The notes below the pieces were generated by a model that was given only the letters and a program-made list of their open reading frames with translations, was not told the DNA's origin and did no database searches. Below are positions 30,762-52,297 of a DNA stretch of 64,000 nucleotides, in pieces. This DNA is from Oharaeibacter diazotrophicus (GTDB lineage: Bacteria > Pseudomonadota > Alphaproteobacteria > Rhizobiales > Pleomorphomonadaceae): contig NZ_SNXY01000007.1 in the NCBI RefSeq assembly GCF_004362745.1, positions 496,001 to 560,000 on the forward strand. The letters run 5' to 3'. The translations under genes were made by a program, and so were the position numbers. Position 1 is the first letter of the stretch; every line of letters starts with the position of its first letter.

Positions 30762-30838
30762 GCAGCTGTAGCTCAGTTGGCTAGAGCGTCGGATTGTGGC
30801 TCCGAAGGTCGCTGGTTCAAGCCCAGCCAGCTGTACCA
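30762..30838 (+). tRNA. tRNA-His (anticodon GTG), CCA encoded
   Basis: The 77-base cloverleaf is complete. The acceptor GCAGCTG (30762-30768) pairs with CAGCTGT (30828-30834), the first pair being G-U. The D stem is GCTC/GAGC, the anticodon stem TCGGA/TCCGA encloses TTGTGGC with GTG at 30796-30798, and the T arm and encoded CCA follow. Position 73 is A and the base before G1 is T, so no G-1 is encoded. This is the known alphaproteobacterial form of tRNA-His, in which histidyl-tRNA synthetase uses other acceptor-end features. A prophage begins immediately downstream. Confidence 0.95.
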
Positions 30839-30889
30839 CCCCTCTCCATTGAAATATTTGCGGTTTTTGGTGCCGTCCTGCGTGTTCGT

Positions 30890-33001: not shown

Positions 33002-33228
33002 CCGAGCCTCGCGACGATGTCGTCGGCGGTGTCGCCGGCCTTCAGGGCGTCGATCCAGCGGTCGAGGTCGTGCATGTCGTAGAGCCGATCGCCGTTCGGA
33101 AAGGCGATCGGAGCGACCGGGCATTCCGTTGCGAAGGTCTTGCGCGATCGGCCGCAATATTCGGCCGCCTCGCTCGCCTTCAGGAGGCGCCGGGGTGTGA
33201 GACGGAGGTTGATGGTCTGTACGGCCAT
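32998..33228 (-). CDS. xis: excisionase-like MerR/HTH_17 DNA-binding protein
   Basis: This 76-residue winged-helix protein contains RRLLKASEAAEYCGRSRKTF (residues 13-32, the helix-turn-helix) and IAFPNGDRLYDMHDLDRWID (wing and second helix), typical of AlpA/Xis proteins. It overlaps the integrase start by four bases (GTGA). In this position it probably bends attachment DNA and directs excision. Regulation would be from the leftward early promoter. Confidence 0.8.
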   Translation of the reverse strand: MAVQTINLRLTPRRLLKASEAAEYCGRSRKTFATECPVAPIAFPNGDRLYDMHDLDRWIDALKAGDTADDIVARLG

Positions 33229-33253
33229 CGATCGTCACTCCTCGTGGGAAGTA

Positions 33254-33749: not shown

Positions 33750-34742
33750 TCAGGCGCCGGAACGGGTGGTCTCGGGCGTGCCCTCGAAACAGGGGAGCTC
33801 GGTCTGCTTGGCGACCCAGAGGAGATCCTGCTGGACGCGGTCGCGGAGCCAGAAGTCCCAGCGGTAGAGCTGATAGAACCACTCGATGGTGCCCGCGCCC
33901 AGGCGGTAGCGCAGGCGGGCGGGGATGCGGATCGGGTCGCCGTCGAGGAAGGCCGGGACGGAGACCATGAAGATGCCGGGGATCTCGATCTTCTCGCCGG
34001 CGCCGTTGCGGTGCTCCTCGACGAACTCGACGGTGCGCTCGCCGGTCTGCAGACGCTCGGCGCGCTTGGCCTTGGCGCCGACGAACACCTCGAGCGAACG
34101 GGACAGCTCCAGGAGATGGGCGGGCGTCGCGAAGCGCTCCTTGAACAGCCGCTCGTACTCGACGATCTCGGCCTCCGTCGGCGCCGCCAGTTCCGCGGCG
34201 TGCTCCTCGAGGAAGGCGGCGAACAGGGCCTGCTCCATCCGCTTGCCGTTCATCTCGACCCAGGTCTTGAACTCCGGGGTCAGCGGGAAGCGGTAGACGA
34301 TGCGGTGCTCCATGTGCCGCGGTTCGTTGTCGAGATCGTGGTAATCGACCACGCCGACGAAGCGCGGCTCGGGCCACGTGGTCACGGCGAAGACGGCCGA
34401 GCCCTCGTCCTTGTGGCGGTCGAGAAGGTCGGCGAAGCTCTTCAGGGTGGTGACCTCGGCGGTACCGCGGCGCCGGTCGGGGCCGAGGCGATAGGCCTCG
34501 ATCTCCGGCCGGATGCTCCGCACCTGCCCCTTGGCGGCATCGTAGAGGATCGGGACCTCGGGCGGCAGGTTGGTGCCGAGACCGTCGGTGCCGAGCCAGC
34601 GCAGATCGAAGGCGTTGGCCTTGGCGGCGAGCTCGGCGATCGCCTCGACGCCGTCGGCGCCGGCGGGGATCTGCAGCGGATTGGCGACGAGGACGGGGAT
34701 CTGCCCCTCCGCCGCGGCGATGTCGGACTGTTCGTCGGTCAT
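33750..34742 (-). CDS. DUF2303 family (YfdQ-like) phage protein
   Basis: This 330-residue cytoplasmic protein belongs to the DUF2303/YfdQ family found in early regions of temperate phages. Recognisable parts are EVTTLKSFADLLDRHKDEGS, FVGVVDYHDLDNEPRHMEH, VYRFPLTPEFKTWVEMNGKR and the C-terminal IPARLRYRLGAGTIEWFYQL. Its function is not known; it is often near SSB and recombination genes, as here. The ATG at 34742 (MTDEQSD) follows AGAAAGGACCAT. The next upstream gene ends 29 bases away. Confidence 0.85.
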   Translation of the reverse strand: MTDEQSDIAAAEGQIPVLVANPLQIPAGADGVEAIAELAAKANAFDLRWLGTDGLGTNLPPEVPILYDAAKGQVRSIRPEIEAYRLGPDRRRGTAEVTTLKSFADLLDRHKDEGSAVFAVTTWPEPRFVGVVDYHDLDNEPRHMEHRIVYRFPLTPEFKTWVEMNGKRMEQALFAAFLEEHAAELAAPTEAEIVEYERLFKERFATPAHLLELSRSLEVFVGAKAKRAERLQTGERTVEFVEEHRNGAGEKIEIPGIFMVSVPAFLDGDPIRIPARLRYRLGAGTIEWFYQLYRWDFWLRDRVQQDLLWVAKQTELPCFEGTPETTRSGA

Positions 34743-34771
34743 GATGGTCCTTTCTCTGGTCGTGGCTGATC

Positions 34772-35104
34772 TCAGCCGGTGGAACGGTCGCCGACGGGGC
34801 GGGGGAACATGTCGGCCTGACTGGGGTGCTGGACGGAGAAGGCGCCGTCGACGAGCCAGAACGGCGTCGCCGAGAAGCCCTTCTCCTCCGGGAGCTTGCT
34901 CTTGACGCTCGGCTTGACGTCGAGGCGGTCCTGCTGGGCGGAGATCGTCAGCGTCACCGTGAGGGTGACGGTGCCGGAGCCGTCCGGCTGCGCCTCGAGG
35001 GCGGCGAGCGCGTCGGCGAGGTGCTGGTCGCAGCGCTCGGCGAACCGGCCGCGCGCCACGAAGCCGATGAGGTCCGTCAGGCGGCGGAACACGGGACTGG
35101 ACAT
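34772..35104 (-). CDS. hypothetical phage early protein, 110 residues
   Basis: I do not know a named family. The N-terminal half is helical (FRRLTDLIGFVARGRFAERC, LADALAALEAQP), then two beta strands (GTVTLTVTLTISAQQDRLDV) and a conserved-looking LVDGAFSVQHPSQADMFPRP tail. It sits between SSB and DUF2303 in the leftward early operon with short gaps (12 and 29 bases). It is a soluble protein, perhaps working with SSB. Confidence 0.7.
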   Translation of the reverse strand: MSSPVFRRLTDLIGFVARGRFAERCDQHLADALAALEAQPDGSGTVTLTVTLTISAQQDRLDVKPSVKSKLPEEKGFSATPFWLVDGAFSVQHPSQADMFPRPVGDRSTG

Positions 35105-35116
35105 GGTCTCTTCTCC

Positions 35117-35578
35117 TCAGAACGGCACTTCGTCGTCGAAGGGCGGGGCCGCTGCGGCGGTCGGGTCGGGGCGATCGGGACGGGTGCGGGCGGCGCCGTA
35201 GGCGGTTTCGTCGGGCGCCTGGCGCTCGGACCGGTCGAGCAGGACCAGATCGCCGCGGAAGGCCTGGAGCACGACCTCGGTGGCGTAGCGGTCCTGCCCG
35301 GACTGGTCCTGCCACTTGCGCGTCTTGAGCTGGCCCTCGACGCAGACGTGCGAGCCCCTGCGCAGATACTGCTCGGCGACCTTGGCGAGGCCCTCGTTGA
35401 AGATCACCACCGTGTGCCAGTCGGTGGTCTCCTTGCGCTCGCCGGTGGTCTTGTCGCGCCACGCCTCGCCGGTGGCGATGCGGAAGGTGACGACGAGCCG
35501 GCCGTCCTGGGTCCGGCGGCTCTCCGGATCGGCCCCGAGGTGGCCGAGGAGGGTGACGCGGTTGATGGATCTCGACAT
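35117..35578 (-). CDS. ssb: single-stranded DNA-binding protein
   Basis: This 153-residue SSB has an OB fold (RVTLLGHLGADPESRRTQDG, VVTFRIATGEAWRDKTTGER, TDWHTVVIFNEGLAKVAEQY, LRRGSHVCVEGQLKTRKWQD). A short disordered linker and the acidic C-terminal tip DDEVPF, which recruits host replication and repair proteins, follow. The ATG at 35578 gives the exact family N-terminus (MSRSINRVTLLG). It is a phage-encoded second SSB in the leftward early block. Confidence 0.93.
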   Translation of the reverse strand: MSRSINRVTLLGHLGADPESRRTQDGRLVVTFRIATGEAWRDKTTGERKETTDWHTVVIFNEGLAKVAEQYLRRGSHVCVEGQLKTRKWQDQSGQDRYATEVVLQAFRGDLVLLDRSERQAPDETAYGAARTRPDRPDPTAAAAPPFDDEVPF

Positions 35579-35595
35579 CGGTCCCTCGCGGTCTC

Positions 35596-36255
35596 TCAGG
35601 CGGCCGTCCGCCGGGTGACGGGGCAGAGGTCGTGGAGCAGCGCCAACCAGCGGTCGGCGGCCTCGGGCCACGGCCACGGGCGGGTCCAAGCGGGCTTGAG
35701 CTCGACGGCGCGCGGGGGCGCATGATCCCATCCCCACGGCCGGCCGCAGGGCGCCATGTGGAGGAGGCGCTCGGTCTGGAGGAGACGGTCGTCCCAGTCC
35801 TTGACCGCCATGGCGACGACGCGCGGCAGCGGCCACGGCAGGCCGGCGGCCGGATAGATCGCCGCGTCGAGGCGCGCCTTGATCTCGTGGAGCGCGCGCA
35901 CGGTGAAGCGCTCGACGGCGCGCGCCGCGAAGTCGCCGGCCTCGTCTCGGGCGAGCTGGTAGGCGATCGCCGCGATCCCCTCGGCCGTCGGCCGGGTGAT
36001 GTCGGTGACGAAGGCCTCGTGCGCGTCGTGCAAGAGGAAGGCGGCGGCGAGCTCCCGATTGCCGGTGTCCCGGAGGATCGCCTGGGTGCCGACGGCGCAG
36101 TGCTGGGCGGTGGAGATCGGCCCGGCCGGGGTCTGGCCGGCCCATCGGGCGGTCCGAGCGAGCGGGCCGGCGACGTCGCCGGCGAAGTCGATGTCGGTGA
36201 CGAGAGGAGCGATCAGGTCGATCGCCCGGCCGGTGCCGGTCTGCATCCAGGTCAT
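35596..36255 (-). CDS. HD-domain phosphohydrolase
   Basis: This 219-residue HD-superfamily protein is related to YfbR-type nucleotidases. Metal ligands are visible: His in STAQHCAVG, His-Asp in AFLLHDAHEAFVTDI, and Asp in VKDWDDRLLQTE. The RWAGQT near the N-terminus is common in these phage homologues. It probably hydrolyses nucleoside monophosphates and adjusts nucleotide pools during phage replication. It lies 17 bases before ssb in the leftward early block. Confidence 0.82.
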   Translation of the reverse strand: MTWMQTGTGRAIDLIAPLVTDIDFAGDVAGPLARTARWAGQTPAGPISTAQHCAVGTQAILRDTGNRELAAAFLLHDAHEAFVTDITRPTAEGIAAIAYQLARDEAGDFAARAVERFTVRALHEIKARLDAAIYPAAGLPWPLPRVVAMAVKDWDDRLLQTERLLHMAPCGRPWGWDHAPPRAVELKPAWTRPWPWPEAADRWLALLHDLCPVTRRTAA

Positions 36256-38547: not shown

Positions 38548-39303
38548 TTACAGCCGCGTGAATCGCCCTACGACTCGTCCAATGATCTTGACGCGATCTG
38601 CGCGCATGGGTCGATCACGGACAGCTGGGTTGTCGGAAGTGACCAGCACTTTGCGCGGCTCACCATCTGTTTTCTGGATGCGTTTTACCTGCGGCTCGCC
38701 GTCGTCATCGGAAATGAGATAGACCGCGCCATCCGGCCCAAGCCTGTTCTGCGAAAGGTCTACAATGACCCGATCCCCCGGCTCCAAGGTTGGGCGCATA
38801 CTATCGCCCTGAACCTCAACAACGACCGTGTAGCCTGGACGGGCCTTCAGCTCCTGGCGGAGGAATGGCATGGGAAACAGCCATTCGCCGATGACCTCAT
38901 GCCCGGTCGCCGAGCCGCCGGCTGGCAGCGCGAAAATTGCTGCGTTCCCGATTGCCCCATCCCCTGCGCCACCGCGCACGTCAACCTCAGGAGATGCGCC
39001 GGACACCTCCGGCGTGTAGACCATGCGCGGACCATCCATCCCAATTGATGATGAAGGGCTCGATGGCGCCCCGTCCTCGTCAATCGGAACGTATTGAAGC
39101 TCGTCTGGCGCTGGCGCAGGCTCTCCAATGTAAGTGGCCGCGATCGGGATTTCAGAGGACTTCAGCCGGCGCTTTCCATTACTGATCTTGTTCACGACAG
39201 ACGGGTCAACCCCCATCGCCCGGGCAAGACCGGACTGGGATTTGCCGGGCTTGGATAAACCGGCGTTCAACCATTCAAGGTACGGGTCGGCTTTCGCGTG
39301 CAT
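38548..39303 (-). CDS. LexA/CI-type phage repressor with S24 peptidase domain
   Basis: This 251-residue repressor keeps the prophage silent. The N-terminal XRE helix-turn-helix is SGLARAMGVDPSVVNKISNG (about residues 25-44). The C-terminal self-cleaving domain has the Ser in VEVQGDSMRPTLEPGDRVIV and the Lys in GEPQVKRIQKTDG, both intact, with a candidate Ala-Gly cleavage site in FALPAGGSATG. It should therefore be inactivated by RecA after DNA damage. The ATG at 39303 is chosen because upstream codons enter the operator region; no ribosome binding site precedes it, and an operator copy begins at the start codon, suggesting negative autoregulation. Confidence 0.9.
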   Translation of the reverse strand: MHAKADPYLEWLNAGLSKPGKSQSGLARAMGVDPSVVNKISNGKRRLKSSEIPIAATYIGEPAPAPDELQYVPIDEDGAPSSPSSSIGMDGPRMVYTPEVSGASPEVDVRGGAGDGAIGNAAIFALPAGGSATGHEVIGEWLFPMPFLRQELKARPGYTVVVEVQGDSMRPTLEPGDRVIVDLSQNRLGPDGAVYLISDDDGEPQVKRIQKTDGEPRKVLVTSDNPAVRDRPMRADRVKIIGRVVGRFTRL

Positions 39304-39319
39304 ATGCGTTTGTCGCACG
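39303..39319. promoter_or_regulatory. repressor operator OR3
   Basis: TATGCGTTTGTCGCACG begins at the repressor start codon, so occupancy would block repressor transcription or translation start. Confidence 0.7.
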
Positions 39320-39337
39320 GCAGACCCTATGCAGTCA

Positions 39338-39354
39338 TGTGCGAATAGGGCATG
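39338..39354. promoter_or_regulatory. repressor operator OR2
   Basis: On the minus strand CATGCCCTATTCGCACA, the weakest match of the five. It lies midway between the repressor start and the rightward promoter. Confidence 0.55.
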
Positions 39355-39361
39355 ATTCCAG

Positions 39362-39390
39362 TTGACAAGCCTATGCGATAAACGCATAGT
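39362..39390 (+). promoter_or_regulatory. predicted rightward promoter PR
   Basis: TTGACA (39362-39367), a 17-base spacer and CATAGT (39385-39390) predict a start at about 39397, which is the A of the Cro-like gene's ATG. The mRNA would be leaderless. The perfect operator 39372-39388 lies between and over the boxes. Confidence 0.7.
39372..39388. promoter_or_regulatory. repressor operator OR1
   Basis: TATGCGATAAACGCATA has perfect six-base arms and is the best copy. It covers the spacer and -10 of PR, so bound repressor would block the rightward transcript. Confidence 0.8.
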
Positions 39391-39396
39391 ACAGCC

Positions 39397-39858
39397 ATGA
39401 GTACTCATTGCGATCCCGCTGCCTCCATCATCTTGCGCCTGGGAGGGGTCTCCGAAGTCGCGGAGATCGCGCAGGTTGACGTGTCTCGTGTGTGCCGTTG
39501 GCGCCTTCCTAAGGGCGACAGCGGCGGAACCGGCGGGGTCATCCCGACGCGGCATGTTCCTGTGCTGCTAAGAGCTGCGAAGATGCGTGGCATTGCGCTT
39601 TCGGCGGAAGACTTCTTCATGACTGACGAAGAGGGCCTCTCTTCCATCGGTGGCGCCGTCGACCCCGGCGCCATCGGCCGTCCCGCCCGGCTCGCCGGCG
39701 CTTCCTCCCCGCCGGCCGGCGCCGCCTCCGCCGCTCGACGGGCCGGGCGGGGTGGTGGCCGCGATCGCCTGCAGCAGCGCGAGGCGAGCGAGCGCGTCGG
39801 AGAGCCGACGGGCTGCTGCGGCGCGCCGCCCGGGCTTGTCAGGGTCCGTCATCGGTAA
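39397..39858 (+). CDS. Cro-like (YdaS-type) regulator
   Basis: The first 75 of 153 residues form a small HTH protein of the Cro/YdaS type: SIILRLGGVSEVAEIAQVDV and SRVCRWRLPKGDSGG, then IPTRHVPVLLRAAKMRGIAL. It is divergent from the repressor and is the first gene of the rightward transcript. The C-terminal 70 residues are Arg/Gly/Ala-rich and may be an extension made possible by the high GC content; a frameshift that removed an earlier stop is possible. It presumably represses the repressor gene during lytic growth. Confidence 0.72.
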   Translation: MSTHCDPAASIILRLGGVSEVAEIAQVDVSRVCRWRLPKGDSGGTGGVIPTRHVPVLLRAAKMRGIALSAEDFFMTDEEGLSSIGGAVDPGAIGRPARLAGASSPPAGAASAARRAGRGGGRDRLQQREASERVGEPTGCCGAPPGLVRVRHR

Positions 39859-42419: not shown

Positions 42420-43168
42420 ACGCTCCCCTCGGAGGCGGCCTCGTCGGCACGGTCGTGCCGCTGCCGCTGACCCGCGCCGGTCGCGAAGCGGCGACGCGCG
42501 CGATCCTGGCCCGGGCAACGCCGCGCCCGCTGCCGGCGGACGCCTCGGCGGACGTCCGCCTCCGGGAGAAGTGGCGGCAGGAGTGCGAGCGCCACCTCGC
42601 CCGGCTGATGTGGATGGAGCCGTTGCACTTCGACCGGATCGTGACCCGCGACCCGGTCACCGGCGCCTATTGCGCCGTGATCCCGGTCGACGAGCGCGCC
42701 GACGCCGGGGAAGGCGTCGACGCCGAGCGCGCCGGGGAGATCGAGCGGCTGCGCCGCGAGGTCGCGCGGCTGGCGGCCGAGCGCGCCGCGGCCCTGGAAG
42801 AGGTCGCCGTGCTGCGCGCCTTCGTCGGCGACAACGTGGACCTCGCGGCGCAGGGCGGCGCGGAGGGGCCCACCCTCGCGGGCCGCGTGCTCGCGCTGCT
42901 GCGCGTCGCCGCCGCGGAATGGGGCGTGCCGGCCGGGCTGATCCCGCGCCGGGCGGGTGCCGATGCACCGCGGGCGCTGGGAACCGGAGGGCAACACCGC
43001 GACGTCCTATGCCTGGGTGGTGTGGCGCAAGCGCGTGTTTGCCGCGGGGGATACCCGCCTGACGTGGATTCCGGTCGGGTGCCGCGAGGCGCTGACGATG
43101 CCCGGGGACGTCGAGCGCTTCGGCGTGGCGGCGGAGGCGGAGGGCGATGGGCTGTTCGGAGGTGGCGA
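42416..43168 (+). CDS. coiled-coil phage protein; reading frame runs on over the next gene
   Basis: From the coupled GTG at 42416 the first 185 residues read as a normal protein: VVPLPLTRAGREAATRAILA, LREKWRQECERHLARLMWME, and a coiled coil (ERLRREVARLAAERAAALEE) to about AEWGVPAGLIPRR. After about 42,955 the frame becomes Arg/Gly-rich and overlaps the better-looking gene at 42,957-43,172. There is no stop until 43,363, so the real end is uncertain; the expected stop near 42,960 seems to have been lost. No function is proposed. Confidence 0.55.
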
Positions 43169-43172
43169 ATGA
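42957..43172 (+). CDS. orphan C-terminal piece of a phage DNA methyltransferase
   Basis: This 71-residue frame (GTG 42957 or ATG 42963) reads MHRGRWEPEGNTATSYAWVV and GDTRLTWIPVGCREALTMPG, matching the C-terminal end of phage SAM-dependent methyltransferases, where a MHR-G-W...ATS-x-AW-VW segment is followed by a WIP motif. The catalytic SAM-binding and N/D-PPY parts are missing, so it cannot methylate by itself. It may be a remnant or an independent small domain. Its stop overlaps the next ATG (ATGA). Confidence 0.5.
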   Translation: MPMHRGRWEPEGNTATSYAWVVWRKRVFAAGDTRLTWIPVGCREALTMPGDVERFGVAAEAEGDGLFGGGE

Positions 43173-43363
43173 CCGACCTCCTGGTGCTGCGGCGCCGCGG
43201 CGGGCGTCCGCCTCTGAAAGTGCGCGTGGTGCGCGCTCGCTCCGCCCGCCGTCGGCGCGTGGCGGCCCGGCTCGGCGCGCTCGGGTGGGCGACATGGCGG
43301 ATCGCCCGGGCGCTCGGCGCGTCGCGGCGGGTCGTCGAGATCTGGACCGGGAGGGGCGGATGA
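43169..43363 (+). CDS. small basic HTH-like protein, 64 residues
   Basis: The frame from the ATG at 43169 gives a very basic protein (RRGGRPPLKVRVVRARSARR) ending in a helix-turn-helix-like segment (GWATWRIARALGASRRVVEI). It probably binds nucleic acid. It is coupled on both sides by ATGA overlaps, to the methyltransferase fragment before it and the C5 methyltransferase after it. Confidence 0.6.
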   Translation: MTDLLVLRRRGGRPPLKVRVVRARSARRRRVAARLGALGWATWRIARALGASRRVVEIWTGRGG

Positions 43364-45186
43364 GGGAACTGATCGTCGACAGTTTCGCCGGTGGCGGCGG
43401 GGCCTCCACCGGGATCGAGATGGCCCTCGGCCGCTCGCCCGACTACGCCATCAACCACGACCCCGAGGCGTTGGCGCTGCACGCGGCCAACCACCCGGAC
43501 ACCGTGCATCTGTCGCGCAACATCTGGCAGGTCGATCCGCTCGAGGTGGTGGGTCGGCGGCCGGTCGGGCTGCTGTGGGCCTCGCCGGACTGCAAGCACT
43601 TCAGCAAGGCCAAGGGGGGCAAGCCGGTCAAGCGCTCGGTGCGCGACCTCGCGTGGACGGTGATCCTGTGGGCACGGCGAGCGCGGCCCCGTGTGATCAT
43701 CCTGGAGAACGTGGAGGAGTTCCAGCACTGGGGCCCGCTCGTCGAGGTGTCGCCGGGGGCTGGCGCGTTCATTCCGTGCCCCGATCGCAAGGGCGAGACC
43801 TTCGATCGCTGGGTCGGCGAGCTGCGGCGCCTCGGCTACCGGGTGCAGTGGCGCGAACTGCGCGCCTGCGACTACGGCGCCCCGACCATGCGCAAGCGGC
43901 TGTTCCTGATCGCCAGGCGCGACGGCCGGCCGATCGTGTGGCCGGAACCGACGCACGGTGCGCCGGATAGCGCCGAGGTGCGCGACGGCCGTCGTGCCCC
44001 GTGGCGGACGGCAGCGGACATCGTGGACTGGTCGCTGGCCTGCCCCTCGATCTTTCTCACCAAGGAGGAGGGGCGCGCCGTCGGTGCCAATCGGCCGCTC
44101 GCCGACGCGACCATGGCGCGGATCTTCAAGGGGCTGATGCGGTACGTGTTCCAGGCCGGCGACGACGCGTTCCTGGTGCCGATCACGCACACCGGTGCGC
44201 CGCGGGCGCACCCGATCGACGAGCCGGTTCGGACCGTGACGACGGCCGCCCGCGGTGAGCACGCCCTCGTCGTGCCCCATGTCACAAAGTTCCGCGAAAA
44301 CAGCGTGGGAGCCGACATGCGCGCCCCTCTGCCGACGGTGACGGCGAACGGGCACGTGACACGCCCCGGCGGCGCGGCGCCGCTCGGGGTGGTCGAGGCG
44401 ACCGTCGCGCCCTTCGTCGCCGGCATCGCGCATGGCGACAGCGGCGGCCGTCGCGCCTACGGGCCGTTCGAGCCTTTGCCGACGGTGCAGGCCGGCGGCA
44501 ACAACCATGCGCTCGTCGCCCCGTATCTCGTGCCCCGCTACGGCGAGCGGGAGGGTCAGGAACCGCGAACCGTCGCGATCGACCGTCCGGCGCCGGCCGT
44601 GGTGCCGACCGCCAACGGCGGGAGCCTCGCCGCCGCGTTGATGGTGAAGTCGAACTTCGGCGACAAGCCGCACTATGCGGTCGGCGAACCGACGCGGACG
44701 ATCGTGGCGGGCGGTACGCACCATGCGCTCGTTGCCGCCTTCCTCGGCCATCACTACGGCAGCAACGAGGGCAGCGGCGGCGATCCGCGGGAACTGCTTC
44801 GGACGGTGACGGCCGGCGGCACCCACACGGCAGAGGTCCGTGCGTTTCTTGCGAAGTACTACGACACCGCCGTCGGGCAGGATCTTCGTGAGCCGCTGCA
44901 CACGGCGACGACGAAGCCGCGCTTCGGTCTGGTGACGATCCACGGCGAACCTTATGAGATCGTCGACATCGGCATGCGGATGCTCTCGCCGCGCGAGCTC
45001 TTCCGGGCGCAGGGCTTTCCCGACGACTACGTCATCGCCGAAGGGGACTTCGCTGGCGAGCGGCGCGCGCTGACGAAGACGGCGCAGGTGCGCATGTGCG
45101 GCAACAGCGTGTGCCCTCCGATCGCCGCCGCGCTGGTCGCCGCCAATTGCGCCGACATGGCCGAGCGACGCGAGGCGGCCGAATGA
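43360..45186 (+). CDS. C5-cytosine DNA methyltransferase
   Basis: This 608-residue phage methyltransferase modifies cytosine in DNA. Motif I is VDSFAGGGGASTGIE (6-20), the catalytic cysteine is in ASPDCKHFSKAKGG (about 75-88), motif VI is ILENVEEF (about 111), motif VIII is DYGAPTMRKRLFLIARRDG, and motif X is MCGNSVCPPIAAALV near the C-terminus. Between VIII and X is a long target-recognition region made of repeated P-x-x-TV-T/V-x-x-G-x-H-ALV units (at least five). No restriction enzyme is adjacent, so it probably protects phage DNA or alters host methylation. The ATG at 43360 is coupled to the previous gene. Confidence 0.92.
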   Translation: MRELIVDSFAGGGGASTGIEMALGRSPDYAINHDPEALALHAANHPDTVHLSRNIWQVDPLEVVGRRPVGLLWASPDCKHFSKAKGGKPVKRSVRDLAWTVILWARRARPRVIILENVEEFQHWGPLVEVSPGAGAFIPCPDRKGETFDRWVGELRRLGYRVQWRELRACDYGAPTMRKRLFLIARRDGRPIVWPEPTHGAPDSAEVRDGRRAPWRTAADIVDWSLACPSIFLTKEEGRAVGANRPLADATMARIFKGLMRYVFQAGDDAFLVPITHTGAPRAHPIDEPVRTVTTAARGEHALVVPHVTKFRENSVGADMRAPLPTVTANGHVTRPGGAAPLGVVEATVAPFVAGIAHGDSGGRRAYGPFEPLPTVQAGGNNHALVAPYLVPRYGEREGQEPRTVAIDRPAPAVVPTANGGSLAAALMVKSNFGDKPHYAVGEPTRTIVAGGTHHALVAAFLGHHYGSNEGSGGDPRELLRTVTAGGTHTAEVRAFLAKYYDTAVGQDLREPLHTATTKPRFGLVTIHGEPYEIVDIGMRMLSPRELFRAQGFPDDYVIAEGDFAGERRALTKTAQVRMCGNSVCPPIAAALVAANCADMAERREAAE

Positions 45187-45365
45187 GCGCGCCGGATCTG
45201 TTCTCCGCCCTGCCGTCTCCTTCGCCGCCGGTCGCGCCGGCGCGCGAGCCGACCGTTGGATGTGCCGTGTGCGGGTCGTCATACGCGCCCTTCGGAATTG
45301 CCGTGTCGATCCGAAAGGGACGGCCGGGTTCCTGGTACTGCCGCGACCACGTGCCGGGGAGGTGA
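45183..45365 (+). CDS. small zinc-ribbon-like protein, 60 residues
   Basis: The product has a Pro-rich N-terminus and a CAVC (about residues 27-30) plus WYCRDH pair, which could bind one zinc ion. The ATG overlaps the methyltransferase stop (ATGA), and the stop TGA overlaps the next ATG. Many phage replication regions have such small zinc proteins; function unknown. Confidence 0.6.
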   Translation: MSAPDLFSALPSPSPPVAPAREPTVGCAVCGSSYAPFGIAVSIRKGRPGSWYCRDHVPGR

Positions 45366-45748
45366 TGATGGCGGTCTATGTCGACGACGCGCGCCGCCCG
45401 CTCGGGCGGATGCTGATGAGCCACATGTGGGCGGACTCCAAGTCGGAGCTGCTGGCGATGGCCGATCGGATCGGCCTTTCGCGCCGCTGGATGCAGCAGC
45501 CGCCGACGGCGACGTGGCTGCACTTCGACGTCTGTCAGGCGACCCGCGATCGCGCGATCGCGGCCGGGGCGATCTCGGTCGACCAGACCGAGGCTGTCGC
45601 GCACCGCGCCCGCCTCGACGTCGCGAGCGGCATTTCGAGCCGGGTCGCGCGCGGCGAGAAGGTGCTGTTCGACATCGCCTCTCGGCGGGCGCGGGAGCGC
45701 GCAGTGTCGCGCGGGCAGTCGGATTTGTTCGGAGGGCCGGGGGGATGA
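45365..45748 (+). CDS. DUF4031 domain protein
   Basis: This 127-residue protein begins with the DUF4031 core MAVYVDDARRPLGRMLMSHM, followed by ADSKSELLAMADRIGLSRRW and WLHFDVCQATRDRAIAAGAI. The C-terminal 50 residues are a basic helical extension. The family is widespread in phages and its function is unknown. The start overlaps the previous stop by one base and its stop overlaps the primase start (ATGA). Confidence 0.8.
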   Translation: MMAVYVDDARRPLGRMLMSHMWADSKSELLAMADRIGLSRRWMQQPPTATWLHFDVCQATRDRAIAAGAISVDQTEAVAHRARLDVASGISSRVARGEKVLFDIASRRARERAVSRGQSDLFGGPGG

Positions 45749-48429
45749 GCAACGACAATCCGCTCCTAGCCGCCGCGCTCGCCTGGGCCGCCGCCGGGGT
45801 TCCGGTGTTCCCGTGCTCGCCTTCGGCCGCCAAGGGCGAGGGCAAGCGGCCCCTGGTGCCGCGGGAGAGCGCGCCCGGCGCGAAGGACGGCGGTCTCTAT
45901 CTGGCGACCACCGATGCCGAGACGATCCGGGGCTGGTGGCGGCGATGGCCGAAGGCGCTGATCGGCATGCCGACCGGCGCGCGGTCGGGGGTGGTGGTGA
46001 TCGACCTCGACCCGCGGACGCACCCGGTCGAGGTCATGCTGCACGCGCTGTTCGAGTGGGCGGTTTCCGCCGGGGAGATGACCGTCGCGGAAGGCGCGGA
46101 AACGCGGGTGTTCCCCGTGCGATCGGTGACGCAGAGCGGCGGCCTGCACTTGTGGTTCGCCGCCCCCGACGGCGTCGCCGTAGGCAACAGGGTCGGGCTG
46201 TTCGCCAAGGTCGCCGGCGTTGCCGAGGCCATCCGCGAGCACGTGGACGTCCGCGGCGACGGCGGCTACGTGATCGTGCCGCCGTCGATCATGGATGACG
46301 GCAAGGCCTATGTCTTCCCGGACGGCTACGGCGACCTCCGCGCGCTGCCGCCGCTCGATGGCCCGCTCGGGCGGGGGTTGCTCGACCTTTTGCTCAAGCG
46401 GGGTGCCTTCGCCGCCGCGGCCGCGCGGGCGACGTCCGCCGCCACCGCCACCAAGGCCGGCGCCGCCTCGACGTCCTCGCCCGAAGACGAGGCGGTGCGC
46501 CGCTACGGGCTCGCCGCGCTCGACAGCGCCGCGCGGGACATCGCCTCGGCACAGCCGGGCATGCGGAACCAGACCATCAACGACAGGGCGCTCTCGATCG
46601 GCCATCTCGTCGGTGCCGGCGCGATCGCCCATTCCACCGCGCTGGCAGTGCTCGTCGACGCCTGCCTCGCCCTCGGCCTGACGAGCGACGACAAGGCGCT
46701 GCGGCCGGGGGGCACGGTGGAGCGGGCCCTGCGGGACGGCGCGGCGAAGCCGTCCGACCTCGGCGAGATCCGCCGCAAGGCCCGCGAGCGGGCGGACCGT
46801 GCCGCGCGCCGCGAGATGGCGCCGGCGATGCCGACCGAAGGGGAATGGGTGCCGCCGGGCGGGCTCGACGACTACGGAAGTGCGTCCGGCGGAGGGCACA
46901 CTCCCGCGCCCTCGGCCGGTCCGGTCGCTTCATCCTCCCAATCGGGAGCGGTGCTCGACGCTTCGCCCAAGGGGTGGGGGGAGAGCGCCGCGCTCGACCT
47001 CGAGCTCGGGTTCAAGCCGCTGACCGATCTCGGCAACGCCGAGCGGTTCGCGGCGCGCTACAAGGGGCGTCTGATCTACGTGGCGGCGCACGGCTGGCTG
47101 GTGTGGACCGGGCAGCGCTGGGCGCGCGAGGGGGCCGACGAGATGGTGACCCGCGCCGTCCACGACGTGGTGCGGCGCATCCAGGACGAAGCGAAGGCCG
47201 TGGCCGCGTCCGATCGCGACCACCTGGTCGGAACGCCGCCGAAGGTGAAGCTCTACAGCGAGAAGGTCGCGGACTGGGGGCGGTCTTCGGAGGCCGCGGC
47301 GAAGCTCAAGCCGATTCCGCCGCAGGCGGCGCCCTATCTCGCCGTCGCGCCGAGCGCGCTCGATGCCGACCCGCTCCGGATCAACGTGGCGAACGGGACG
47401 CTGGTGATCCGCCGCGGCCCCGGCGAGGGCGACCCGATCACCCTGCGGCCGCACGATCCCGGCGACTACATCACCAAGCTCGCCCCGGTGATCTACGATC
47501 CGAACGCGGCGGCGCCGGTCTACGATCGGTTCCTCGCCGAGGTGCAGCCCGCGCCGGCGATGCGCCGATTCCTGCACCAATGGGGCGGATACTCACTGAC
47601 GGGCGACGTCGGCGAGCAAAAGCTCTGCTTCTTCTACGGCAAGGGCAAGAACGGCAAGTCGACGCTGGTGGACGCCTGGGGTGCCGTCGCCGGAGACTAT
47701 GGCGAGACGGTCCCGATCGAGACGTTCCTCGACCAGGGGCGCGGGCGAAACGCGGGGGCGGCGACGCCGGATCTCGCCATCCTGCCCGGCGTCCGCTTCC
47801 TGCGCACGTCCGAACCCGAGAAGGGCGCCAAGCTCGCCGAGGCGCTGATCAAGCTGGTGACCGGCGGCGAGCCCATCCAGGCGCGGCACCTCAACCGCGA
47901 CTACTTCAAGTTCCGGCCGGCGTTCAAGCTGACCATGTCCGGCAACTACCGGCCGTCGATCGACGGCACGGACGAGGGCATCTGGCGCCGGCTGGTGCTG
48001 GTGCCGTGGCTGGTCACGGTGGGCTCGCCCGACCGGCTCCTGCCGCTGAAGCTCGCGGCCGAGGGGTCGGGCATCCTCAACCGCCTGCTCGACGGGCTGC
48101 GGGACTACCTCGACGGCGGCATGGTGTGGCCGGACGCGGTGGTGGAGGCGACGGAACAGTATCGAGAGGACAGCGACCCGCTCGGCCGGTTCCTGGCGGA
48201 TGCCGTCCGACCATCGCCGGGCGGGCGCGTCCAGGTGAGCGACCTTCACCGCGTCCACTCCGCATGGGCCCGGGTGAACGGGGAAAAGGAGTGGTCGGCC
48301 AAGGGGTTGTCCGCAGCGATGAAGGAACGGGGCTTCCGGTCCAAGCAATCCAACGTGATGTGGTGGTTGGACGTCGTGCTCGTGAAGAGCGAGCGCGATT
48401 ACGAGGACTTGCCCGACCATCCGCCCTGA
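45745..48429 (+). CDS. phage replication protein: prim-pol primase fused to SF3 (D5/P4-type) helicase
   Basis: This 894-residue protein probably starts phage DNA replication. The N-terminal prim-pol domain (about 8-200) shows AGVPVFPCSPSAAKGEGKRP, the GVVVIDLDPR Asp pair and the SGGLHLWF His motif. A helical and linker section follows, then D5_N and the SF3 helicase with Walker A YGKGKNGKST (about 631-640), FLRTSEPEKGAKLAEALIKL and the sensor region MSGNYRPSIDGTDEGIWRR. The C-terminus has the winged-helix domain typical of P4-type primases. A cluster of GGGAGGAT iterons and inverted repeats follows the stop at once, so it may bind its origin there. Confidence 0.92.
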   Translation: MSNDNPLLAAALAWAAAGVPVFPCSPSAAKGEGKRPLVPRESAPGAKDGGLYLATTDAETIRGWWRRWPKALIGMPTGARSGVVVIDLDPRTHPVEVMLHALFEWAVSAGEMTVAEGAETRVFPVRSVTQSGGLHLWFAAPDGVAVGNRVGLFAKVAGVAEAIREHVDVRGDGGYVIVPPSIMDDGKAYVFPDGYGDLRALPPLDGPLGRGLLDLLLKRGAFAAAAARATSAATATKAGAASTSSPEDEAVRRYGLAALDSAARDIASAQPGMRNQTINDRALSIGHLVGAGAIAHSTALAVLVDACLALGLTSDDKALRPGGTVERALRDGAAKPSDLGEIRRKARERADRAARREMAPAMPTEGEWVPPGGLDDYGSASGGGHTPAPSAGPVASSSQSGAVLDASPKGWGESAALDLELGFKPLTDLGNAERFAARYKGRLIYVAAHGWLVWTGQRWAREGADEMVTRAVHDVVRRIQDEAKAVAASDRDHLVGTPPKVKLYSEKVADWGRSSEAAAKLKPIPPQAAPYLAVAPSALDADPLRINVANGTLVIRRGPGEGDPITLRPHDPGDYITKLAPVIYDPNAAAPVYDRFLAEVQPAPAMRRFLHQWGGYSLTGDVGEQKLCFFYGKGKNGKSTLVDAWGAVAGDYGETVPIETFLDQGRGRNAGAATPDLAILPGVRFLRTSEPEKGAKLAEALIKLVTGGEPIQARHLNRDYFKFRPAFKLTMSGNYRPSIDGTDEGIWRRLVLVPWLVTVGSPDRLLPLKLAAEGSGILNRLLDGLRDYLDGGMVWPDAVVEATEQYREDSDPLGRFLADAVRPSPGGRVQVSDLHRVHSAWARVNGEKEWSAKGLSAAMKERGFRSKQSNVMWWLDVVLVKSERDYEDLPDHPP

Positions 48430-48434
48430 TCGTC

Positions 48435-48611
48435 GGGAGGATCGGGGGGACATGGGAGGATGGCCGAACGAACCTCCCACCTGCAAGCCGTTGAAAACGA
48501 ACGGAATGGGAGGATTTGGGAGGATGGGAGGGTTTCGCCGAGGTCTCACATGATGCGCATGCGCACATGAGGTACACACGGAAATATCCTCCCATCCTCC
48601 CAAATCCTCCC
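48435..48611. other. candidate phage replication origin: GGGAGGAT iterons in a large inverted repeat
   Basis: Between the primase-helicase and the next gene are GGGAGGAT copies at 48435, 48454, 48508 and 48518 plus GGGAGGGT at 48526. Three inverted copies (ATCCTCCC) lie at 48586, 48594 and 48604. The blocks 48507-48531 and 48588-48612 are perfect inverted repeats of 25 bases. Between them is the 12-base palindrome TGCGCATGCGCA (48554-48565). The inner section is AT-richer. Position and structure fit an origin bound by the primase-helicase; the structure could also be a cruciform or regulatory RNA element. Confidence 0.65.
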
Positions 48612-48675
48612 AAGCCAAATGAAAACAATATCTTGGGCGTGGGACGATCGTATTCGATCCTCCCTTGACGGGACG

Positions 48676-49491
48676 ATGACCATGAAGCGGATGACGATCG
48701 ACGAAGCCGTGCGCTGGGCTTACCGCGAGGAACTGCCGAAGAGCCGCGTCCGGGTGAAGGAGGGCGTGTTGGGTTACGGCAACGGGTCCGTTGGGCCGAA
48801 CGCCCTCGCGGACTGGTGGACGCTCCCGGACAACGCCTTCGGGGTGGTGCTCGACCCGACGAAGTTCGACGATCCCCATCCGGACGCCGTCGCGATCCAC
48901 GAGGCGGTGGTGGCGCTCGACGGCTGCCCGGTGGTCTATCCGGAGGGGGGCGAGGTCGGAGCGTGGTGCGGCGTCGACCTGCACGGGCTGGAGGTCCAGT
49001 GCGCGACCGAGGTGTTCCGGGTGATGCTGCGCCGTCGCCCGTCCGAACTGGTGCAGCAGTTTGCCATCCTCGGTCTGCCGGACATGATCGTCGACCCGCC
49101 GGAGCTGCGGTACATGACGCACGCCAATGGCCGGCCGCGGTACTTCCGCCGTCAGGTCGTCGTCGTCGAGGGCGAAGCCATCGAGCAAGAGGTCGACGGG
49201 TACGACGCCCGCGGGCGGAGGCCCTATCCCGATGCGTATCGCAAGCCCTACCTCGATCCCGATCCCGTTCCGTCGCTCGTCTGCAGGGCGAAGGCCGAAG
49301 TCTGGCGGGCGGCGATGGATGTGCTCGTCGCGGATCTCGACGGTGTGCTCGCCGAAGTCGAGGTGCTGCCCTGTCCGCTGCCGGCGCTGCCCTGGGAAGC
49401 CGCCGAACCGAGGGTGCTGCCCGACCTCCGGCCTCGGGTCGGGCCGAGGCTCGACAGGGTCGCGAAAGGGCGGAGGTCACGAGCCGCTTGA
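48676..49491 (+). CDS. hypothetical phage protein, 271 residues
   Basis: The N-terminus TIDEAVRWAYREELPKSRVR is a feature I have seen in uncharacterised proteins of alphaproteobacterial phages, encoded after the replication genes. The middle is beta-rich with several DP and PEGG turns (FDDPHPDAVAIHEAVVALDG). It has a few cysteines and no TM segment. Three ATGs (48676, 48682, 48691) are close together; the first is listed, with GGGA upstream. A strong terminator follows, so it ends the replication operon. Confidence 0.7.
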   Translation: MTMKRMTIDEAVRWAYREELPKSRVRVKEGVLGYGNGSVGPNALADWWTLPDNAFGVVLDPTKFDDPHPDAVAIHEAVVALDGCPVVYPEGGEVGAWCGVDLHGLEVQCATEVFRVMLRRRPSELVQQFAILGLPDMIVDPPELRYMTHANGRPRYFRRQVVVVEGEAIEQEVDGYDARGRRPYPDAYRKPYLDPDPVPSLVCRAKAEVWRAAMDVLVADLDGVLAEVEVLPCPLPALPWEAAEPRVLPDLRPRVGPRLDRVAKGRRSRAA

Positions 49492-49539
49492 CTTGCGGTT
49501 ATGACTTGCGGCATGTTCACTCACAGATGAAAAGGTTAA

Positions 49540-49570
49540 GGGCTCGGTTCGATCGAACCGGGCCCTTTTC
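49540..49570 (+). terminator. intrinsic terminator between replication and morphogenesis modules
   Basis: GGGCTCGGTTC (from 49540) and GAACCGGGCCC (to 49565) form a near-perfect stem with one G-U pair and a GATC loop, followed by TTTTC. It is preceded by AAAAGG, so it could work in both directions. Confidence 0.8.
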
Positions 49571-49763
49571 GTTTCCTCCCCCCTGCCTTCACCGAAGACC
49601 GGCAACGTGGCCGCGGGCCCCACGGGTCCTTCCCGGGTCCGGACGCAATGCGGGAACACGAAGGGCGGGCGTTTTCTAGTTGGACAGCGATTTCACGGGG
49701 TTGACGGCGTTGACGGGTGGACGGGACGGGGTTGACGCGGCGGGTGAGGCCGGGCGTCCCCTG

Positions 49764-50327
49764 ATGCTGTCCGTGTCGGAGCTGGCGCGCCTGAAGGGCG
49801 TCTCGAAAGAGGCGGTGTCGAAGCGGGTGCGCCGGTTCGAGGGCGACGGGGTGCTGGCGACGCAGATGGTCGGGCAGCAGAAGATGGTGCCCGTCGCCGA
49901 GTACGACCGCCTCGTCGGAGAGACCACCGACTTCGCCCAGGTCCGGACCCGCCCCGATCGCGGCGCGGATACCGGACCGTCGCGGAAGTCGACGGCCGAG
50001 GATCCGGTCCGGGCCGTCGAGGACGCGCGGCGCGCCCGGTACGCGGCCGACCGCGAGGAGATCGAGCTCGGCAAGGCGCTCGGGCAGATCCTGCTCACGG
50101 CGGACGTCGAGCGGGCGATGATGCGGTGCGCCGAGGCGCTGGTGCGCGCCATCGACAACCTGCCGCGCCGTGCCGAGGACATCGCGGGCGCGGTCGCCAA
50201 GGACGGAGTCCCCGGCGCCCGGGCGCTCCTCAAGGAAGCGGCCTACGACCTGCGCAAGGTGCTCGCGGCCGAAATGAAGCTGCTGGCGGCCGAGGACGCC
50301 GCGACTGCGAACGGAGACGATGCATGA
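49764..50327 (+). CDS. terminase small subunit-like protein (Nu1-like)
   Basis: The 187-residue reading from the ATG at 49764 begins with a winged-helix HTH (MLSVSELARLKGVSKEAVSK, RVRRFEGDGVLATQMVGQQK) like Nu1-type small terminases, which recognise the packaging site. A linker and a helical C-terminal region (ADREEIELGKALGQILLTAD, DVERAMMRCAEALVRAIDNL) that should bind the large subunit follow. A TTG at 49680 would add 28 residues; the upstream stretch has three TTGAC repeats and is more likely regulatory. It overlaps the large subunit start by four bases (ATGA). Confidence 0.8.
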   Translation: MLSVSELARLKGVSKEAVSKRVRRFEGDGVLATQMVGQQKMVPVAEYDRLVGETTDFAQVRTRPDRGADTGPSRKSTAEDPVRAVEDARRARYAADREEIELGKALGQILLTADVERAMMRCAEALVRAIDNLPRRAEDIAGAVAKDGVPGARALLKEAAYDLRKVLAAEMKLLAAEDAATANGDDA

Positions 50328-52297
50328 TCACGCCGAGCCGGGCCGCCATCGCCGTCGTGGCGGGCGTGCTCGCGGCCGTGATCGTCCCGCCGGAGCCGGT
50401 GACGCCGTCGGTTTGGGCGCGCGAGAACCTGGTGGTGCCGGACGGGCCGCTCGCGGGCGACCTCTGGGATCCCCGGCAGACGCCCTATGCGCCGGCGATC
50501 ATGGACGCGCTCGCCCCGGACAGCCCGTACAACGAGGTGGTCGTCCGCAAGTCGGCGCAGACCGGCCTGACGACGGTCATGGTCGGGTGGCTGTGCAGCT
50601 CCATGCTGTCGGCGCCCTGCCGCATGATGATCGTGCTGCCGACGATCGATGCGCTCAACGAGTTCTCGGCCGAGAAGCTGACGCCGGCGATCACGGGGAC
50701 CAAGGCGCTCCGGGACGTGGTGGCGCCGCAGACCTCGCGCAGCGGCGACGGATCGACCGCGACCCGCAAGAAGTTTCCCGGCGGCAGCTTGGTGTTGGCG
50801 AACGCCAATTCGGCGTCCGACCTCTCGTCGAAGACGATCAAGTACATCGGCTGCGACGAGGTCGACCGCTGGCCCGACGAGCTGCCCGGCCAGGGCGACC
50901 CGATGGAGCTGGTCGACGCCCGCTTCATGGCGTTCCGCGCGACGGCGGACTGGAAGAAGTTCGTCATTTCGACGCCGACGGTCGAAGGGGCGTCGCGGAT
51001 CGACGACGCGTTCCAGCGCGGCGACCAACGCCATTGGCGCATCCGGTGCCCGGGTTGCACCGAGGAGATCGCGCTGCAGTTCGAGCACCTGAAGTTCAAT
51101 CGCGAGCCGCCGTACCGGGCCTACTACGCGGCGCAGTGCTGCGGCCGGCCGATCGAAGCGCACGAACGGGCGGCGCTGATCCGCGCCGGCCGTTTCGTCG
51201 CCGACGAGCCGGGACCGCATCGTCCGCCGAGCTTCCACGTGGACACGCTGACGTCCCTCCTGGTGACGTGGGACGACATCGCCGCCAAGTGGTGGGCGGC
51301 GCAGGGCGACGAGAAGAAGCTCTCCGCCTTCGTGAACCTCTGGCTCGGCCGCACCTACCGGGTGCGCGGCGACGCGCCGGAGTGGGAACGGCTGATGGAA
51401 CGGCGCGTCGCATACGCGCGCCGGACCATCCCGGCCGGCGGACTGGTGCTGACGGGCTTCGCCGACGTCCAAGGCGCCGGCATCTGGTACGAGATCGTCG
51501 CCTGGGGGCGGGACTGTGTCTCGTGGTGCGTCGACGCCGGCTACATCGACGGCGAGACCGACGATGCCGCCGCGGGAGCATTCGCCGAGCTCGCCCGGGT
51601 GATCGAGCGGAGCTATCCGGACGCCTACGGCCGCCGCTGGACCGTGGACGCGTTCGGGGTCGACGCCGGTTACAACCAACACGTCGTCACGACCTTCGTC
51701 CGCGGCCGGCCGGACTGCTACGCGTGCAAGGGCCAGCCGGGATGGTTTCAGCCGGCGATCGGCACGGCGACGCCGGTCGACATCAACTACAAGGGCAAGA
51801 AGACCAAGAACGGCGCCCTGCTCTGGCCGGTCGGCAACTACTCTCTGAAGAGCCTGTTCTATGCGCGCCTGCGCAAGGACGGCGTGTCGGCGGGGGCGGA
51901 CGTGGACCCGCCGGGGTACTGCCACTTCGGCGACTTCCTCGACGAGGTCTATTTCCGTCAGGTCACCAGCGAAAGCGTGGTGGTGAAGAAGCGCGGCGGC
52001 CGGACGACGCGGGTGTGGGAAGAGCACGGGCCGAACCACCTGCTCGACTGCCGGGTCGGCAACATGGCGTTGGCCGAACTGCCGCATCTCGGTCTCAGCC
52101 GAATGACCGAGGACGATTGGAAGCGGCTGGCGACGGAGCGCGGCGTTCCGGAGGCGGCCCTCGACGACCTGTTCCGCCCGCGCCCGCTGGCGGCGCCGTC
52201 CGAGGCCGAGGACGTCGCCGAGGCGGCGCCGAAGCAGCCGCGCGGCGCGGCGGTGATGGCGAGCGTGCTCGCCACCCTCTCGACGCTCAACCACTGA
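50324..52297 (+). CDS. terminase large subunit, GpA family
   Basis: This 657-residue packaging motor and nuclease is of the lambda GpA type. It has the variant Walker A RKSAQTGLTT, the MIVLPTIDALNEFSAEKLTP segment, the Walker B-like YIGCDEVDRWPDE, two zinc-knuckle pairs (CPGCTEEI and CCGRP), and the nuclease part with GFADVQGAG and VDAFGVDAGY Asp residues. Length is that of GpA proteins (about 640). The ATG at 50324 is coupled to the small subunit. It cuts concatemers and threads DNA into the prohead through the portal encoded downstream. Confidence 0.93.
   Translation: MITPSRAAIAVVAGVLAAVIVPPEPVTPSVWARENLVVPDGPLAGDLWDPRQTPYAPAIMDALAPDSPYNEVVVRKSAQTGLTTVMVGWLCSSMLSAPCRMMIVLPTIDALNEFSAEKLTPAITGTKALRDVVAPQTSRSGDGSTATRKKFPGGSLVLANANSASDLSSKTIKYIGCDEVDRWPDELPGQGDPMELVDARFMAFRATADWKKFVISTPTVEGASRIDDAFQRGDQRHWRIRCPGCTEEIALQFEHLKFNREPPYRAYYAAQCCGRPIEAHERAALIRAGRFVADEPGPHRPPSFHVDTLTSLLVTWDDIAAKWWAAQGDEKKLSAFVNLWLGRTYRVRGDAPEWERLMERRVAYARRTIPAGGLVLTGFADVQGAGIWYEIVAWGRDCVSWCVDAGYIDGETDDAAAGAFAELARVIERSYPDAYGRRWTVDAFGVDAGYNQHVVTTFVRGRPDCYACKGQPGWFQPAIGTATPVDINYKGKKTKNGALLWPVGNYSLKSLFYARLRKDGVSAGADVDPPGYCHFGDFLDEVYFRQVTSESVVVKKRGGRTTRVWEEHGPNHLLDCRVGNMALAELPHLGLSRMTEDDWKRLATERGVPEAALDDLFRPRPLAAPSEAEDVAEAAPKQPRGAAVMASVLATLSTLNH

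Follow-up and report, generated by a model that had tools for sequence, protein, structure and literature searches.

The window analysed here is a stretch of 64,000 nucleotides from Oharaeibacter diazotrophicus, and coordinates refer to it unless another record is named. A 58-bp direct repeat of the 3' part of tRNA-His is found at 30790-30847 and, in the window plus the next 20 kb, again at 81602-81659 (L353 17602-17659). These repeats are probably attL and attR of a prophage of about 50.8 kb inserted in tRNA-His (30790-81659). The prophage encodes a portal and a head protease (PHROG), together with the following genes and one codon of special interest.

31934-33238, reverse strand: tyrosine integrase
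33750-35723, reverse strand: DUF2303-containing protein of 657 aa, towards the left side of the prophage
38548-39555: CI-like repressor (PHROG)
43147-45186, forward strand: phage C-5 cytosine methyltransferase, directly upstream of the primase gene (Pfam, PHROG)
45256-48429, forward strand: prim-pol/D5-type SF3 helicase of 1057 aa, the presumed initiator (Pfam, PHROG, AlphaFold, structure match)
48356-48358, forward strand: codon of Val1034, the residue whose identity predicts word base 4 across relatives
48682-49491, forward strand: next gene, phrog_9306 (PHROG match 7.6e-35), with its likely start inside the listed ORF 48619-49491
49680-50327: terminase small subunit
50126-52297: terminase large subunit gpA

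The start of the phrog_9306 gene at 48682 is taken from the matching N-terminus in L011. Between this gene and the terminase small subunit gene there is a 25-nt near-palindrome with overlapping arms (49531-49574), a candidate terminator or cos site.

The presumed initiator matches Prim-Pol (PF09250, 1.6e-30) and D5_N (2.3e-24) in Pfam, and DNA primase PHROG 1156 at 4.1e-144. It carries a Prim-Pol and not a Toprim-type primase. Its helicase is of the D5/primase-C-terminal type of SF3, as indicated by D5_N and by matches to PDB 7ola in both profile (E 4.5e-15) and structure. An AlphaFold model of residues 589-1057, built from 70 aligned sequences, has a mean pLDDT of 94.4 and a pTM of 0.89. The solved structures nearest to the model are ASFV PrimPol (9ivf_B, Z 31.4) and the SaPI5 primase-helicase (7ola_B, Z 29.3, rmsd 4.0 over 380 residues, a match that includes the C-terminal end); the poxvirus D5/E5 helicases and phage NrS-1 are also close. 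Prim-pol, SF3 helicase and C-terminal winged helix are all present in this one protein (Pfam, model and structure comparison), the winged domain covering approximately residues 975-1045. Within it, a helix (model residues 427-436) is followed by a beta hairpin with strands at model residues 441-444 and 446-454. Residue 1034 (number 446 in the model) opens the last strand, and in the predicted structure it forms the wing tip of a winged-helix-like domain.

An array of short repeats, which we call words, fills the gap between the initiator gene and the next gene (48434-48677), its first word beginning 5 bp past the stop codon.

48434-48442, forward strand: left word 6, CGGGAGGAT, 121.5 bp from the centre
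48453-48461, forward strand: left word 5, TGGGAGGAT, 102.5 bp from the centre
48471-48479, reverse strand: left word 4, TGGGAGGTT, reversed, 84.5 bp from the centre
48507-48533, forward strand: left inner triplet, words at 48507, 48517 and 48525 (48.5, 38.5 and 30.5 bp from the centre)
48534-48585: centre, 52 bp, with the palindrome TGCGCATGCGCA and a 17-bp alternating purine-pyrimidine run
48586-48612, reverse strand: right inner triplet, words at 48586, 48594 and 48604 (30.5, 38.5 and 48.5 bp from the centre)
48613-48640: right arm, AT-rich (61% AT against about 29% in the window), a candidate unwinding element
48640-48648, forward strand: right word 4, TGGGACGAT, 84.5 bp from the centre, mirroring 48471-48479
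48657-48665, reverse strand: right word 5, AGGGAGGAT, 101.5 bp from the centre, mirroring 48453-48461
48669-48677, forward strand: weak right word 6, CGGGACGAT, with two mismatches, in an orientation that does not mirror 48434-48442

Eleven words TGGGAGGAT with at most one mismatch lie in 48434-48665, and the weak twelfth follows. An earlier note on this DNA had placed the array at 48435-48612; it is indeed there, but its right end lies further, at 48665 or 48677. The same note's count of about eight repeat units after a prim-pol/helicase gene is borne out by the exact copies of GGGAGGAT, four forward and four reversed within 48435-48664, with one other copy in the window (46932, reversed), and by the Pfam matches given above. 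This other copy belongs to a lone reversed TGGGAGGAT at 46932-46940, inside the primase gene, which is the only exact copy of that word outside the array in the window. Six of the 17 exact copies of TGGGAGGAT in the genome fall within the array. GGGAGG occurs ten times per 240 bp at the array and at most twice per 240 bp elsewhere in the window.

The words are mirrored about 48559.5. Word centres at 30.5, 38.5, 48.5 and 84.5 bp on either side match exactly, orientation included, so that even the reversed fourth word has its mirrored partner. The fifth pair is mirrored to within 1 bp (102.5 bp on the left, 101.5 on the right), and the sixth is weak (121.5 and 113.5 bp). The 25-bp arms 48507-48531 and 48588-48612, which are the inner word triplets, are perfectly complementary, and the 12-bp palindrome TGCGCATGCGCA at 48554-48565 is equally perfect; thus both are centred on 48559.5, and the palindrome is the exact centre of the array. 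The earlier note had described this same inverted repeat and palindrome. It had also seen three direct and three inverted units in the repeat: the triplets are real, but one word of the left inner triplet is the variant TGGGAGGGT (48525-48533), with its mismatch outside the 25-bp arm. With a repeat finder, the arms can be followed to 34 nt at 88%.

The gap is AT-richer than its surroundings, as previously remarked, with 55.8% GC at 48430-48680 against 70.8% across the window. As single-stranded DNA the array folds with z = -7.06, and none of 200 dinucleotide shuffles folded as well. An intergenic element whose transcript would fold strongly could in principle act on the early operon as an operator or a transcription terminator, without a role in replication. 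We found no terminator-like or sigma-70-like site in 48200-48900, a search for RNA elements in Rfam returned only eukaryotic and viral microRNA models far below their thresholds, and an array of six plus six words exceeds what a terminator needs. We give this explanation next to no weight.

Relatives were collected by scans, a first one of viral contigs (13 loci) and then further ones (318 loci in all), leaving 187 loci after removal of near-duplicates; each scan gave its best 80, and the set represents the nearer relatives, not a census. Words of the TGGGAG or AGGGAGG type lie behind the primase in 11 of the first 13 loci, the exceptions being L019 and L021 at 37% identity. When we counted one 9-bp word, allowing one mismatch, in the 560 bp after the primase stop, at least seven copies of one word were present in 124 of the 187 relatives, six copies in 23 and five or fewer in 40 (best 80 per scan throughout). 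Among the first 149 loci, 124 had a best word count higher than any of five shuffles of the same locus (maxima of the shuffles 3-8); control windows reached seven or more words in 4 coding and 11 downstream cases.

The gene that follows the array is not constant. Ten downstream ORFs, a sample from ten relatives, were phrog_9306, a terminase small subunit, an antiterminator (two), Neck1, HNH, portal and three unassigned. A crude count of 21 downstream families in 85 loci (longest ORF, any frame) was not used as evidence. The variety of families in the ten relatives speaks against a packaging site (cos or pac) read by terminase, as does the tracking of the primase by the word (below). The terminase genes downstream in this prophage would suit such a site, as would Rhodobacter phage RcapNL, whose annotated cohesive end, a 3' overhang of 26 nt, is found immediately to the right of the right-hand word triplet (L341 4391-4458), but we consider packaging highly improbable. 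In RcapNL, what we read as the origin and cos are close neighbours.

Eleven named phages were also tested; a twelfth record, Mae-JY04, ends at the primase. Compared with mono-shuffles, Pan4 (13 words against 4), Sc-Yong805-1 (13 words against 5) and Milly (11 words against 5) had high counts. Pthi1, phi105, Methanoculleus virus L4768 and RcapNL had moderate counts, and AcaML1 was marginal (5 against 4). In Sue2, Samy and Mabodamaca, nothing behind the primase rose above mono-shuffles. Given these three phages and the 40 relatives with five words or fewer, we rejected the idea of a perfect or universal array. The approximately 11 words of Mycobacterium phage Milly (L346 3964-4186) are TGGACGGAT-like and lie behind a DNA polymerase/primase gene.

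The words differ by clade and include TGGGAGGAT, TGGAAGGAT, CGGGAGGC, TGCAAGGGT, AGGGACGAC, GGGCCTGAC, GGGCTTGAC, CGGCCCGAA, GGGTCGTCA and others. As judged from the compared sequences, the clades preserve the layout of the array while rewriting its word. In the clade of the window, triplets at about 31, 39 and 49 bp from the centre are followed by a reversed word near 86 and by words near 102 and near 115-120. L026 is the closest relative with a switched word: TGGAAGGAT replaces TGGGAGGAT, and the spacings of the window are kept (31/39/49/87/102/115 on the left and 32/40/50/88/103/117 on the right). Rhodobacterales prophages have triplets at about 42, 51 and 60 bp and then words near 127, 148 and 157. 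Cyanophage Pan4 has the Rhodobacterales type of layout, and Sc-Yong805-1 has the same layout shifted outward by about 13 bp. A score for the mirrored layout was passed by 54 of 192 loci, namely 52 of the 187 and two named cyanophages; the 192 comprise the 187 and five named phages (L341, L342, L344, L346 and L350) that were picked for their arrays or kinship. With the cyanophages excluded, the number of words per half (at most two mismatches, within 180 bp of the centre) was six in 53 of 104 halves, five in 26, seven in 12, four in 8, eight in 3 and three in 2.

Two features of the region around the words recur among these arrays. The first is an unusual centre. Of 103 array centres, 58 contain a stretch of 14 bp or more in which purines and pyrimidines alternate; among 3866 windows of equal length from these loci, 0.2% do. 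The run of 17 bp in the window was reached by 5 of 1000 dinucleotide shuffles of that centre. Alternating purine-pyrimidine tracts can take Z-form or form cruciforms under supercoiling. Rhodobacterales centres (L156, L171, L173 and others) often hold GGGGTNNGGGG between TACGC.. and ..CATGCGTA. The second feature is an asymmetry of composition. With the words left out of account, 51 of the 54 arrays have more AT in the right arm than in the left (means 0.60 and 0.47; 0.58 and 0.42 in the window); the loci are related, and the Wilcoxon p-value is therefore optimistic. Thus the composition suggests that the unwinding side is probably the right arm.

The mirrored triplets necessarily raise the question of whether a hairpin or the words are the conserved unit. 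Across the 54 arrays, 91% of positions inside the inner words pair with their mirror position, compared with 44% outside words in the same zone; in the outer zone the figures are 50% and 30%. Because mirror pairing is concentrated inside words, and does not form a continuous stem, we rejected the hairpin as the main conserved unit; on this comparison it looks like a by-product of mirrored words. The extrusion of a cruciform, which the earlier note had allowed, is weakened for the same reason.

A reading in which the stem-loop itself is recognised has nevertheless been proposed for replication proteins with the same domain types. Berkner et al. suggest that prim-pol/SF3/winged-helix proteins assemble at a stem-loop, on the basis of the archaeal plasmid pRN1 and Bordetella phage BIP-1; the downstream stem-loop of pRN1 is needed for replication, and one pair of stem-symmetry mutations behaved as if compensatory (PMC4234260). 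These systems resemble our locus in two ways: ORF904 of pRN1 and the BIP-1 protein combine prim-pol, SF3 helicase and winged helix, and an inverted repeat lies downstream of the gene. The perfect 25-bp inverted repeat and strong fold found here would also suit recognition of a stem. The systems differ in that pRN1 is without iterons, and no specific binding was detected there; in its sequence, no words comparable to ours were evident. The inverted repeat of BPP-1/BIP-1 itself is built from two pairs of GTTTGCCTC, each spaced by 9 bp and one mirroring the other, with one mismatch in one of the copies. By count, these four words do not exceed the best of 50 shuffles, and it is their tandem mirrored arrangement that stands out; the two-plus-two reading is ours and not that of the authors (PMC4234260). 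In the 54 arrays it is the words, not a stem-loop, that are conserved, and a stem alone would leave the link between the word and residue 1034 unexplained. Recognition of the stem-loop itself is, in our judgement, very unlikely.

The link between word and initiator came from comparing word base 4 with 442 protein columns in 92 loci, which were classed from DNA alone; the other 95 of the 187 were omitted, their words being in neither class. Residue 1034 was the best predictor. Where base 4 is A, residue 1034 is Gly (38 of 38 loci), and where base 4 is G, it is another residue (54 of 54: V in 43, E in 4, T in 3, I in 2, F in 1 and S in 1). This residue alone holds all the information on the class of base 4, with a normalised score of 0.589 against 0.395 for the next column. 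A tree built from 84 rows of the helicase core shows four switches of the residue and four of the base, on the same branches. All four independent pairs agree, and the sign test gives only p = 0.125 because there are fewer than six such pairs. One of the switches divides the nearest kin of the window (L023 and L024) from L026 and L107. Three loci (L162, L189 and L190) are absent from this tree because neither type of word reached three copies in them. Two of the three, L189 and L190, subsequently yielded the words TGGGATGTT and GGGATAGTT, both of which fit the Gly/A rule. Milly was left uncounted: its TGGACGGAT and wing ..KSQGVRVY.. look concordant with the rule, but its loop is one residue longer and the alignment is ambiguous.

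The word also follows the larger domain. In partial Mantel tests on 124 loci, word and C-terminal domain correlate at 0.203 when the core is controlled for (none of 999 permutations as high), whereas word and core correlate at 0.019 when the C-terminal domain is controlled for, values that are optimistic in treating related loci as independent. The loci for these tests were taken from the 187 with the five named phages added. By this measure the word is tied more closely to the initiator's C-terminal domain than to its helicase core. Together with the covariation of residue 1034 and base 4, this supports the idea that the C-terminal domain may bind the words. A second word base may follow a residue neighbouring 1034, since L052 and L053, a single lineage, have SHG with the word TGCAAGGGT. 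One could speculate that the extra thymine methyl of the switched base pair is accommodated by Gly1034.

In sum, we put at about 80% the probability that this array serves as the prophage's replication origin, or as the main initiator-binding part of that origin. The earlier note had read the region as an iteron origin, and the comparison with relatives supports this: similar arrays stand behind the primase in most of the 187, the genes beyond them differ, and the word appears to follow the C-terminal domain.

Origins of this general kind are known. Lactic phages such as Sfi21 have origins behind their primases, and SaPI origins have an AT-rich spacer between two iteron sets. Here the centre between the triplets is an alternating purine-pyrimidine tract with 46% AT, the AT-rich region between iteron sets is absent, and AT-richness is shifted to the right arm (61%); thus we class the array as working like a SaPI origin and not as one. 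Its host element is also a full-size temperate tailed prophage. The likeness lies in the D5-kind SF3 helicase, the short repeats directly 3' of its gene and the fold match to 7ola_B. Iteron origins directly downstream of D5-type helicase genes are described in SaPIs, where the C-terminal domain of Rep recognises the downstream iterons (PMC7581432). In the same source, the isolated C-terminal domain (400-538) of SCCmec Cch2 binds direct repeats downstream of cch2; deletion of the inverted repeats had no effect on binding, whereas deletion of the direct repeats abolished it (PMC7581432). The AAGTG direct repeats of Cch2 occupy the same place as our words, but there are three of them, the primase is separate, and there is no mirrored array of six plus six.

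The satellite phage P4 offers another parallel. Its alpha protein is a fused primase-helicase, 8-bp repeats occur in both orientations, and crr lies directly behind alpha with five type 1 repeats per 120-bp unit. The annotated P4 origin is elsewhere (9086-9809), and repeats behind an initiator gene can therefore be accessory. By analogy, the initiator might bind our array while synthesis starts at a second site in the phage. P4 needs two separated elements, whereas one array was found here: a search of both strands of the prophage (30790-81659) for TGGGAG, the only word sought, gave 19 copies, eight in the array and the rest scattered, without a second cluster. Moreover, the six-plus-six mirrored layout with its centre is complete in itself. 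We regard an accessory element as unlikely. The primases also differ, being Prim-Pol here and Toprim in P4 alpha (PMC4234260).

The earlier note had called the region a candidate new phage origin. It has variant features, but the SaPI iterons and cch2 repeats described in PMC7581432, and P4 crr, were already known. What is already known in kind is a D5-type helicase with iterons behind its gene; what appears to be new is a two-half layout that is conserved while its words are rewritten, together with the unusual centre and the link to a single residue. The alternating purine-pyrimidine centre, the AT-rich right arm and the link of one residue to the word were the less expected features. In the CC-licensed part of PubMed Central, outside which most subscription papers lie, we found no account of the array, its layout, its centre or the residue-word link.

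Based on these comparisons, we propose a model for how the array may be used. The best explanation, by analogy, is that it works like the staphylococcal SaPI origins, as an iteron origin that loads two facing helicase hexamers. The winged domain of the prim-pol/D5 helicase would bind the words through its beta wing, placing residue 1034 near base 4. The six words of one half would seat one hexamer, with, we infer, one word per helicase subunit. With a hexamer on each of the two facing halves, two hexamers would lie on either side of the centre, oriented oppositely. The earlier note had suggested bidirectional loading from the symmetry of the repeat; the mirrored layout fits that suggestion, which is still an inference. 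ATP-driven melting may begin in the AT-rich right arm or in the strained alternating purine-pyrimidine centre, after which the prim-pol domain would prime and host enzymes would extend in both directions. Clades with a rewritten word would no longer read each other's origins.

We also put forward a broader hypothesis, which we hold tentatively, at somewhat less than even odds. The wing-tip residue of D5-type phage initiators may be a specificity switch: a change to Gly would shift word base 4 from G to A while the mirrored layout stays. In this way phages would found mutually exclusive replication groups, much like plasmid incompatibility groups. The six-word halves would mark where two facing hexamers sit, on either side of a centre that can leave B-form. 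The stem-loop origins of this protein class would be mirrored words in disguise.

These proposals bear on the replication of temperate phages, whose origins are mostly unmapped outside a few models. Behind a primase-helicase gene of a widespread type there now appears to be an origin layout that can be recognised, in alphaproteobacterial prophages and in two cyanophage records. Published work disagrees on whether such proteins use repeats (SaPI, Cch2, P4) or a stem-loop (pRN1, BIP-1). Because a mirrored array of repeats is both repeats and stem-loop, it offers a possible resolution. Among the relatives, initiators and their presumed origins form a naturally matched series of pairs that differ jointly at one residue and one base, and thus the rise and drift of origin specificity become directly testable. 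A word that changes with one residue of its initiator suggests, from the sequences compared here, how start sites may become private to each virus.
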